A stretch of DNA of 46,208 nucleotides from Bacillota bacterium (GTDB lineage Bacteria; Bacillota; Sulfobacillia; Sulfobacillales; Sulfobacillaceae): NCBI GenBank assembly GCA_021797675.1, contig JAJZZH010000093.1:1-46208 (forward strand), given 5' to 3'. The position numbers and the translations under genes were made by a program. Below the pieces are notes generated by a model that was not told the origin of the DNA, did no database searches, and was given only the letters and a program-made list of their open reading frames with translations. This document shows, one piece after another, positions 833-40,277 of this stretch (the stretch's first letter is position 1; each line of letters begins with the position of its first letter).

Positions 833-860
833 TTGATTGGTGGATGTGATGGCGCATAAA
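833..860 (+). promoter_or_regulatory. Candidate promoter of the Cys-rich gene
   Basis: TTGATT (833-838) and CATAAA (855-860) are separated by 16 bases and lie about 50 bases before the GTG start at 913. The hexamers resemble vegetative sigma-A boxes imperfectly. I see no obvious metal-regulator dyad between them. Confidence 0.35.
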
Positions 861-912
861 AACCTTTCGAACACGAATCCTACATGACAACGCAACGAAA
901 GGAGGAAGCCCT

Positions 913-1050
913 GTGCGACCGGATCAGACAGCCAGCGCCGACACATGCTGTTGCTCGCATTGTCATTCCGACCAGTGTGAAAACAACTGCACGTGTTCCG
1001 GACAGTGTAACTGCCGCACTTGTGGATGCGACAAACACCACCGTCGGTGA
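913..1050 (+). CDS. Small Cys-rich metallothionein-like protein
   Basis: A 45-residue protein starting at GTG 913, with a strong ribosome binding site AAAGGAGG (898-905) seven bases upstream. It has 11 cysteines, at residues 12, 13, 14, 17, 22, 26, 28, 32, 34, 37 and 39, mostly as CxC and CxxC pairs, plus four histidines (16, 18, 42, 43). There are no aromatic residues and the C-terminus is basic (KHHRR). That composition is the hallmark of metallothioneins, which wrap Zn, Cd, Cu or Ag in thiolate clusters in the cytosol. The Cys spacing does not obviously match the cyanobacterial SmtA pattern, so I call it metallothionein-like only. A role in metal storage or detoxification fits an acidophile but is inferred. 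The stop lies only a few bases from an IS200/IS605 scar. It is below the usual length cut-off and easily missed by gene callers. Confidence 0.72.
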   Translation: MRPDQTASADTCCCSHCHSDQCENNCTCSGQCNCRTCGCDKHHRR

Positions 1051-2429: not shown

Positions 2430-3095
2430 CTTTGTGCAAGAGCCGAGTTTTGTGAGAATGCGGCGGACACCTCGGAGGAAAGCAAGCAAGATTCCGAGCT
2501 CAAAGCCTTCTACCGCTTGGCGCGGCAATTGAAAGCGGCCTTCCCGCGGCTGCCGCTCACCATCTTGCTGGACGGCCTGTATCCGAAGGATATCGGACCC
2601 AGCACGTTTGGTGGGTGAACGATCTGGAGTACACGTGGCGGGATCCGGAGACCGGCCCGTCGGACGGTCGTGCATTATGTCAGCTGTACCCAAACCTGGA
2701 CGGATGCGAACGGGGACCATCACGTCAGCCAGTGGGCGTGGGTGTCGGCCCGTCCCTTCTCGAAGCAGACGGTGGTAACGCGCTGCAATCGCATGGCCCG
2801 CCACCGCTGGGACATCGAAGAACATATTCTGCAGGAAAAGCACTACGGGTACCATTACACCCACCTCTACTCGCGCCAATGGAATGCGATGAAAGGCTTT
2901 CACACCCTGATGCGTCTCGCCCATCTGTTGAACACGTTGGCGTTACATCAGGTCGGCCTGTGGCCGACCCTGCAGGCCAAGGGGATCGGCCCGACGATCC
3001 GCTGGATTTATCAAACCTTTGCTGGGAACCGGCTGGATACGGATCGTATCGTCGTGCGCCGGGGTCGGCCCCACTCCCTACGCCTCATCTGGTAG
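2430..3095 (+). pseudogene. Frameshifted DDE transposase (IS4-like) remnant
   Basis: Three consecutive frames each encode part of one transposase. First comes FCENAADTSEESKQDSELKAF ending in LTILLDGLYP with a probable catalytic Asp (frame of 2454). Next is VNDLEYTWRDPETGPSD (frame of 2615), then the C-terminal part from about 2670 to the stop at 3095. The last part contains RWDIEEHILQEK, which fits the R-3-E-6-K signature of IS4-type enzymes. The region between DGLYP and VNDLEY is shorter than expected, so there is an internal deletion as well as frameshifts. No intact ends were found. The element is dead. Confidence 0.7.
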
Positions 3096-3545: not shown

Positions 3546-4757
3546 GTGGGGTTACCGATAGCTCTAGCCATAGAATCTCGAGGGCACGAAGTAAAGGCGT
3601 TCGATGTCGACGCAGTAGTCATTCGAAACCTCACCGAACGTCACCATCCGTTCATTGAACACGACCTCAAGGACTATCTTGATGCCTCGCGTATTACCAT
3701 TATCCCCATCGACGAACTTGTGATATGGTCAGATGTTATCCTCATCATCGTTCAGACACCAAACGGACCTGAGTATGAAGGAGTAACACCTTTTCCGGAC
3801 GAACGCCAGCCGTTCGATGTTTCCTATTTGCGAGAGGCCACTCGGAACATATCTGAAGTCTTGGATCGAACCAGAGTGAGGCACCTAGTTGTAGTCGTCT
3901 CCACGGTTTTGCCGGGCACGGTCGATTCGGTTGTCAAGCCAGAACTGTCCCCGTACGCGGTACTCGCCTATTCTCCATTGTTTATCGCCATGGGCACCGC
4001 GATAAGAGACTTTCTTAAACCGGAATTTGTATTGATTGGCACTGACGATCCTGAGGCTCGAGCTCTAAGTCACGAGTTTTATGAGACGCTCACGACCTCA
4101 CCAATCGTTCATACGTCAATTAAGTCTGCAGAACTCGCGAAGGTTGCGTACAACACCTTCATAGGTCTCAAAATTGTTTATGCAAACACGCTAATGGAGA
4201 TTTGCTACAAAACCGGCGCCGACCTCGCTGAAGTAACAAATGTCCTTATGCATGGTCACGAGCGAATCTTGTCCGCTAAGTACTTATCTGGAGGGATGGG
4301 CGATGGTGGATCTTGCCACCCTCGGGATTCCATTGCCTTATCTTGGCTCGCCGAGCAACTCACTCTAAGTCACGACATATTCGCCGACGTTATGGTGGCG
4401 CGGCAACACCAGACCGCGTGGCTTGCATCTCTGGCTATTGAAGAAGCTCAACGCGAAAGTTGCTCGATTGTTTTGTTGGGGTTAGCCTTTAAGGCCAACA
4501 CGAATATCGTAACCGGTAGCTCAGCGCGGCTTTTGCAGTATTACTTGGATGAACGAGGGTACGCGCCGAAACTTTACGATCCCCTAGTCAATGGGGACGA
4601 CGCATTCCACTTTAGCCGTTCTGTGTTCGTGGTTTCTACGAACCACGACACCTTCAAGGAACTCACTTTCCCCAGGGGTTCTGTGGTCATCGACCCGTGG
4701 GATATCATTCTGGAACAATCTAACGTTCGTATCATTCGAATTGGGAGGCAGCATTAA
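3546..4757 (+). CDS. UDP-glucose/GDP-mannose dehydrogenase family enzyme
   Basis: NAD-dependent nucleotide-sugar dehydrogenase, which would oxidise a UDP- or GDP-sugar twice to the uronic acid for a glycan. The N-terminal Rossmann domain has VSTVLPGT. The central domain has KSAELAKVAYNTF. The catalytic cysteine lies in GGSCHPRD (classically GGxCxPKD), and the C-terminal domain has GLAFKANTN. Substrate cannot be told. The start is a problem. GTG 3546 is the first standard start in frame, but the dinucleotide-binding motif GVIGLGKVG is encoded in frame just upstream (from about 3522), so the real protein must begin earlier. GGGAGG (3502-3507) followed by TTG 3511 looks like the natural start but is one base out of frame. 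A one-base deletion, sequencing error or non-standard start is likely. Length is otherwise normal. Confidence 0.88.
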   Translation: MGLPIALAIESRGHEVKAFDVDAVVIRNLTERHHPFIEHDLKDYLDASRITIIPIDELVIWSDVILIIVQTPNGPEYEGVTPFPDERQPFDVSYLREATRNISEVLDRTRVRHLVVVVSTVLPGTVDSVVKPELSPYAVLAYSPLFIAMGTAIRDFLKPEFVLIGTDDPEARALSHEFYETLTTSPIVHTSIKSAELAKVAYNTFIGLKIVYANTLMEICYKTGADLAEVTNVLMHGHERILSAKYLSGGMGDGGSCHPRDSIALSWLAEQLTLSHDIFADVMVARQHQTAWLASLAIEEAQRESCSIVLLGLAFKANTNIVTGSSARLLQYYLDERGYAPKLYDPLVNGDDAFHFSRSVFVVSTNHDTFKELTFPRGSVVIDPWDIILEQSNVRIIRIGRQH

Positions 4758-4813
4758 TCCTAACAAGGATCATACGAAGGTATCGTAAATTATTATGATA
4801 GGAAGGGATCTCC

Positions 4814-5845
4814 TTGAACAGACTACGAATTTGCCAAATCGCCAAGCCGTTCGAACGGGTGCCGCCCGTCACCTATGGAGGAACTGAACGCGTGATCGAC
4901 GGACTCACGCGTAAACTCGTAGAACGCGGACATGACGTAACCCTGTACGCCACGGGCGACTCTATTACCTCCGCCAGATTACGGTCGGTGTACGACCATC
5001 CTAGCTACCCCTACTCTTGGGTGGCCGATGAGGTACACACCACGAAAGCATTCCAAGCGGCGGATGAGTTTGACATCATCCATAACCATACTTATCCCGG
5101 GGTTCGGTATGGAACACTGGTTGCTACCCCCACAGTTACGACCTTGCACAATCCATTACGAAAAGCCATTCTTCCCATGTTCGAAGCCTTCGCGGAAGTC
5201 CCTTACGTCTCGATCAGCAAAGCTCAGCAAACACCTGCTCCGATGCTCAATTACATAGGCATTGTCTACAACGGGGTGGACACCGATGAATTAGAGTATT
5301 CATCAGATTCAAAAGGGTATCTGTTGCACATCGGATTAATTTGTCGACGGAAAGGATCCCATCACGCTGTCGCGGTGGCCCGCCGTTTAGGGTTGCCGTT
5401 GACGCTAGCTGGCCGCGTCCCCACAGAGGAGACAGAGTTCTTTCATAGCGAAATCGAGCCTTATGTGGATGGAACGCGAATCCAGTACATTGGAGAGGTG
5501 GGTGGGATTGAACGGGTCGAACTCTTTCAGGGGGCAATGGCGTTATTGGTCCCCATCGAATGGGATGAACCGTTTGGATTAGTGATGGCCGAGGCGATGG
5601 CGTGCGGCACTCCTGTGGTAGCGTTCCGAAGAGGGTCCGTCCCGGAGATCATTATCGATGGCCTGGTGGGATTTGTGGTTGCCGATGAAACGGGAATGAT
5701 CGATGCCGTTCGACGTATTGATCGGATTCAACGGAAAACGTGTCGCAATCACGTAGTCTCTAAATTTAGTCTGGATGTAATGACTGACGCATACGAAGGT
5801 GTCTATGCCAAAGTTCTCGAAACTTCCGCGCCTCGCCGAACGTAA
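4814..5845 (+). CDS. GT4-family glycosyltransferase
   Basis: A 343-residue retaining glycosyltransferase with two Rossmann-like domains (GT-B fold). The N-terminal acceptor side begins with a typical PPVTYGGTERVI loop. The donor side has an RRKGSHHAV segment at about residue 180 and the E-x7-E signature in EPFGLVMAEAMACGTPVVA, and glycines near GGIERVELF complete the fold. It would act on the cytosolic face of the membrane, adding a sugar from a nucleotide donor to a growing glycan. TTG 4814 is chosen because AGGAAGGGA lies just upstream. It follows the sugar dehydrogenase by 56 bases, so both are probably co-transcribed. Linkage and sugar cannot be predicted. Confidence 0.9.
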   Translation: MNRLRICQIAKPFERVPPVTYGGTERVIDGLTRKLVERGHDVTLYATGDSITSARLRSVYDHPSYPYSWVADEVHTTKAFQAADEFDIIHNHTYPGVRYGTLVATPTVTTLHNPLRKAILPMFEAFAEVPYVSISKAQQTPAPMLNYIGIVYNGVDTDELEYSSDSKGYLLHIGLICRRKGSHHAVAVARRLGLPLTLAGRVPTEETEFFHSEIEPYVDGTRIQYIGEVGGIERVELFQGAMALLVPIEWDEPFGLVMAEAMACGTPVVAFRRGSVPEIIIDGLVGFVVADETGMIDAVRRIDRIQRKTCRNHVVSKFSLDVMTDAYEGVYAKVLETSAPRRT

Positions 5846-40043: not shown

Positions 40044-40277
40044 TTGAACAAACGACAACGATTGTTGCGACCGTCGCTCCGCGATCAGTTCAAATACGAA
40101 GTTGCCGAGCACCTGGGGCTGGCCGATGACATTGCATTGAAGGGCTGGGCCGATATGCCGAGCCGGCAATTGGGTCGCATTGGCGGCACCATCGGCGGCA
40201 ACATGGTGAAGGTTATGATCCGCCAGGCCGAGGCCAATTTGGATGCCGAGCCAACATCCGAAGGATCGGACGTCTAG
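40044..40277 (+). CDS. Alpha/beta-type small acid-soluble spore protein
   Basis: A 77-residue DNA-protecting spore protein. It has the two conserved family blocks: LRDQFKYEVAEHLGL, which contains a likely GPR germination-protease site at KYEVAEH, and RQLGRIGGTIGGNMVKVMIRQAE. The GG-x5-GG-x-MV arrangement is close to the usual GGxITKRLVxMAE. The spacer between the blocks reads DDIALKGWADMPS and is slightly unusual. TTG 40044 is chosen because GGAGG (40031-40035) is eight bases away; the in-frame GTG at 40035 overlaps that box. It would be made in the forespore, but no clear sigma-G box was found. It is convergent with the LysM gene, overlapping its stop by four bases. Confidence 0.88.
   Translation: MNKRQRLLRPSLRDQFKYEVAEHLGLADDIALKGWADMPSRQLGRIGGTIGGNMVKVMIRQAEANLDAEPTSEGSDV

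Follow-up and report, generated by a model that had tools for sequence, protein, structure and literature searches.

A role has been established for only a few bacterial metallothioneins, and none is known to be packed into endospores. The SmtA/BmtA proteins of cyanobacteria and Pseudomonas are small, cytosolic, and rich in Cys and His, and the SmtA type combines about 9 Cys with a zinc-finger-like part. MymT, the mycobacterial copper metallothionein, is tiny and Cys rich and was unannotated when it was found (PMC7558416). When the open literature, which we covered incompletely, was searched for bacterial metallothioneins together with forespore, SASP, or sporulation, the only paper recovered concerned Csp3 of B. 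subtilis, a cytosolic, Cys-rich copper store that is tied to sporulation, folds as a four-helix bundle, and is produced in the mother cell under sigma-K (PMC9484137).

The gene described here lies in a 46,208-nucleotide stretch of Sulfobacillaceae DNA, which we call the window. Its features are as follows.

853..859, + strand: -35-like box CGCATAA (upstream alignment, consensus scan, SASP-trained matrix)
875..882, + strand: -10-like box GAATCCTA, with a predicted transcript start at about 889 (upstream alignment, consensus scan, SASP-trained matrix)
898..905, + strand: ribosome-binding site AAAGGAGG, 7 nt before the GTG
913..1050, + strand: gene for a 45-residue, 11-Cys metallothionein-like protein, with a GTG start (913-915) and a TGA stop (1048-1050); 32 homologous loci, all Cys kept; purifying selection
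946..1029, + strand: Cys core CCCx2Cx4Cx3CxCx3CxCx2CxC (codon-pattern scan, family alignment)

Translation of positions 913-1050 (+) yields MRPDQTASADTCCCSHCHSDQCENNCTCSGQCNCRTCGCDKHHRR, a protein of 45 residues with 11 Cys (24%, as a CCC plus three CxC), 4 His, and no Phe, Trp, or Tyr. This composition was unchanged upon re-counting from that given in the first-pass annotation, whose description of a textbook ribosome-binding site at 7-base spacing likewise held. Like SmtA and BmtA, the protein is small, bacterial, predicted to be cytosolic, and expected to form a metal-thiolate cluster, although it lacks their zinc-finger-like part and has more Cys. It resembles MymT in being tiny, Cys rich, and suspected of binding copper; in contrast, it belongs to another phylum, has no NCBIfam match, and has a different Cys spacing. 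By analogy, Csp3 would be the nearest functional precedent, although the window protein is a short peptide with no predicted fold and a forespore-type promoter.

Searches of Pfam, NCBIfam, and PDB with the window sequence and the scanned family members gave no significant match. The SmtA/BmtA-type model (Pfam Metallothio_Pro) failed to match any of 27 members at E values up to 10, PDB likewise gave no SmtA/BmtA-type match within that limit, and no curated metallothionein cutoff was reached (best Pfam E value, 0.03, for Metallothio_11; none in NCBIfam). The proposal that the Cys spacing is unlike that of the SmtA type thus stands, since neither this model nor any other known metallothionein model matched significantly; by the tests used, the candidate metallothionein is of a non-SmtA type. 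The weak, nonsignificant profile matches were mainly to metallothioneins, namely, wheat Ec-1 (E, 0.02 to 0.08), mammalian MT-2 (E, 0.3 to 4), and Metallothio_11 (E, 0.03). The CxCx3CxCx2CxC run, which forms the C-terminal half of the core, is spaced as in the matched MT-2 chain, whereas nothing in the MT-2 and Ec-1 matches corresponds to the CCCx2Cx4C half, and the resemblance to eukaryotic metallothioneins most likely reflects convergence. An AlphaFold model of the empty peptide showed no confident fold (mean pLDDT, 59.5), as would be expected of an empty metallothionein. A metal-thiolate protein is the best explanation for a product of this kind: small, predicted to be cytosolic, and conserved at nothing but its Cys, which are odd in number and grouped as CCC and CxC. 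The 11-Cys protein is metallothionein-like yet lies outside the known families; together with its relatives, it forms a small family that is new and presumably binds metal. We also considered a disulfide-rich toxin or bacteriocin but set it aside, as the Cys number is odd, there is no leader, and the annotated loci contain no adjacent export genes.

A profile built from 17 relatives retrieved 32 loci in 27 of the 154 genomes of the class. All 11 Cys, in the spacing of the core, are invariant in every full-length member, and this pattern was not a requirement of the profile search. Conservation outside the Cys columns is almost nil in the family alignment; in three members (L315, L316, and L317, in genomes G023, G026, and G028), 3 inserted residues separate the first CxC from the second, and a single aromatic residue occurs in a few relatives, either in the core or in the tail at the N terminus. 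Each of the 11 Cys columns contains both TGC and TGT codons, the changes between them being silent, and pN/pS ranged from 0 to 0.29 across 20 close pairs. Selection acts on the protein, not on the DNA. The pattern that the first-pass annotation had named as telling against the protein, homologs that lose the Cys while the surrounding DNA is conserved, was not what we observed: the 11 Cys persist in a protein that otherwise varies and in neighborhoods that change.

These data bear on whether the reading frame arose by chance, an idea prompted by the shortness of the frame and the longer frames that overlap it. The frame is nevertheless kept in 27 genomes under purifying selection and has its own ribosome-binding site, as do most relatives, whose sites are equally strong. 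Moreover, the exact 11-Cys codon pattern matched once in the window and in 0 of 100 dinucleotide shuffles. The runner-up Cys-rich frame in the window has 6 Cys per 28 residues and the maximum over 60 shuffles was 8, so a comparable Cys density was absent from all shuffles. We consider a chance frame to be exceedingly improbable; 913-1050 (+) is a genuine protein-coding gene.

Used as a single query, the window protein picked up relatives in roughly half the genomes in its own family. With the profile, carriers numbered 19 of 34 genomes in that family and 6 of 7 in its sister family, with one genome each in two further families; a second profile returned the identical set, and a clear gap separated the weakest member (E, about 8e-7) from the next match (E, 0.09). 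A phylum sample of 398 genomes contained 2 carriers, both in the window's family. Among the matches listed by a scan of all species and viral contigs for the exact 11-Cys codon pattern, simple repeats predominated and at least five were real, those five all lying in the class; a plasmid and phage search for the 11-Cys protein returned no match. Absence elsewhere is judged from the 398 same-phylum genomes and, beyond the phylum, from the matches listed by this exact-pattern scan. Sulfobacillus acidophilus DSM 10332, a member of the window's family, does not carry the gene, nor do the family's other genomes with three or fewer contigs. Since S. acidophilus is one of several spore-forming relatives without the gene, the 11-Cys protein is dispensable for sporulation. 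These absences from the few-contig genomes may help explain why the family was overlooked, and a family of 27 genomes whose members have fewer than 60 residues and are conserved almost exclusively at Cys can slip past curated protein-family libraries.

Neighboring genes are unlike between most branches of the family. A common operon was rejected, as the contexts varied and included glycosyl hydrolase 31, EPSP synthase, an HxlR regulator, a molybdopterin enzyme, and an amino acid permease. At most loci, the window's included, the annotated neighborhoods place no metal gene adjacent to the family member. In the window, the gene is convergent with one for a Crp/Fnr-type regulator with cNMP-binding and HTH_Crp_2 domains (1287-1940, -), which is not retained beside the 11-Cys gene in relatives. 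Farther along are overlapping frames suggestive of a decayed transposase (2615-3095, +), including a 141-aa frame without a Pfam match, and the start of a polysaccharide cluster (3546-5845, +), in which a UDP-glucose/GDP-mannose dehydrogenase is followed by a GT4 glycosyltransferase.

At three loci (G004, G022, and G491), a family member lies near CopA in a copper-handling gene set. The CopA-type ATPases in G004 and G022 have the motifs GMTCASC, CPC, YN...P, and MxxSS. G004 and G022 hold the relatives closest to the window protein, and both place them near the ATPase and a Sco1/SenC-redoxin protein, which is annotated in G022 and was assigned in G004 via the same sequence cluster. In G491, which belongs to a different family, the copper gene set (L308, 7982-12211) is directly upstream: a rusticyanin-like cupredoxin gene comes just before the family member, adjoined by a two-component system, CopA, and a CsoR/RicR-like repressor. 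Copper would thus be the leading candidate metal, no more; the bound metal would most likely be Cu(I), with Zn or Cd possible.

Alignment of close relatives revealed two boxes, GCATA(A) and CAnnCTA, that stand out upstream together with the ribosome-binding site. They lie ~50 to 65 bases before the start codon and are spaced 17 to 18 bases apart counted from GCATA, giving the element GCATAA-N15/16-nCAnnCTA. This element resembles the forespore sigma-G/sigma-F consensus, and at least 10 of 11 consensus positions were matched in 19 of 32 upstream regions, versus 0.6% of shuffles. A matrix trained only on the upstream regions of 46 SASP genes from 12 genomes, with SASP and control starts picked by ribosome-binding site strength rather than by experiment, recovered G(G/C)NTAA...CATACTA near -60. 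With this matrix, the 11-Cys genes had a median score of 10.45, compared with 2.65 among 122 controls (p = 2e-14). Because the relatives are not independent, they were collapsed to 15 unrelated neighborhoods, and the difference from 85 intergenic controls persisted (p = 4e-8). The window element (853-859 and 875-882) scored 11.7, which places it close to the 99th percentile of the control distribution; 0.4% of shuffles of its own upstream region reached this value. About one-third of the neighborhood groups scored inside the control range; these may use different promoters or a shifted consensus, or their starts may have been chosen wrongly. Scores were mixed in the insert-bearing subgroup (L315 to L317).

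The upstream regions of gpr served as a second positive set and, in most of these genomes, had the same GCATAA/GTATA...CAnnCTA boxes. In B. subtilis, gpr is under dual forespore control (PMC3789829). Since sigma-F and sigma-G promoters are very alike (PMC3789822), our claim is limited to the forespore class: the promoter of the 11-Cys gene resembles the sigma-G/sigma-F type. A sigma-70-type promoter scan found nothing, the alignments showed no common operator-like palindrome, and neither the Rfam nor the tRNA scan gave a match. Each of the 12 genomes tested, including that of the window, carries SASP, gpr, and SpoVA genes, as in an endospore-forming host. Like the 11-Cys genes, SASP (ssp) genes encode small proteins and have this promoter class in the same genomes; in contrast, SASPs bind DNA, lack the 11-Cys pattern, and are unrelated in sequence. 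The window also encodes a divergent SASP at 40083-40241 (+) (PF00269; E, 5e-13).

On these grounds, the 11-Cys protein is probably a thiolate metal buffer that is synthesized in the forespore and incorporated into the spore. An ordinary metallothionein for vegetative metal resistance, induced by copper or another metal, would account for the copper-handling gene sets at three loci and would suit a clade whose cultured members inhabit metal-rich acid (PMC4378227). It would require that the upstream element be a look-alike of a different promoter class, whereas this element matches the SASP and gpr promoters and not the controls; the alignments share no operator-like palindrome, and most loci lack a nearby metal regulator. 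We therefore regard vegetative metal resistance as unlikely.

If the protein does belong to the spore, its Cys might instead serve disulfide cross-linking or redox buffering, given that a forespore promoter would suit spore structure or oxidative protection. The odd Cys count in CCC and CxC groups is a better fit to metal clusters, however, and neither another conserved residue nor a hydrophobic core is present. Spore coat proteins, moreover, are made in the mother cell under sigma-E/K. A disulfide or redox function appears less probable still than vegetative metal resistance.

In the metal-buffer reading, RNA polymerase with sigma-G (or sigma-F) would initiate at the 853-882 promoter in the developing forespore, and the product would be a small cytosolic metal-thiolate peptide that is unfolded while empty. 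Judging from 11-Cys metallothionein domains, its eleven thiolates would enclose a metal cluster of about four divalent ions; with Cu(I), the number would be higher. The packed peptide would then shield the spore core from thiophilic metals or store them for outgrowth.

With the forespore-type promoter, which the first-pass annotation had missed, the likely role of the protein moves away from general metal resistance and toward spore biology, and the metal induction proposed there may prove negative. The suggested link of the family to the metal-rich acidic habitat of the Sulfobacillus-type clade is plausible. On balance, although with slightly less assurance than for the buffer role itself, we favor a dedicated endospore metallothionein in Sulfobacillus-type bacteria, a forespore-expressed thiolate buffer packed into spores. 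If this is true, metal buffering would be tied to how spores survive in acid environments laden with metals.
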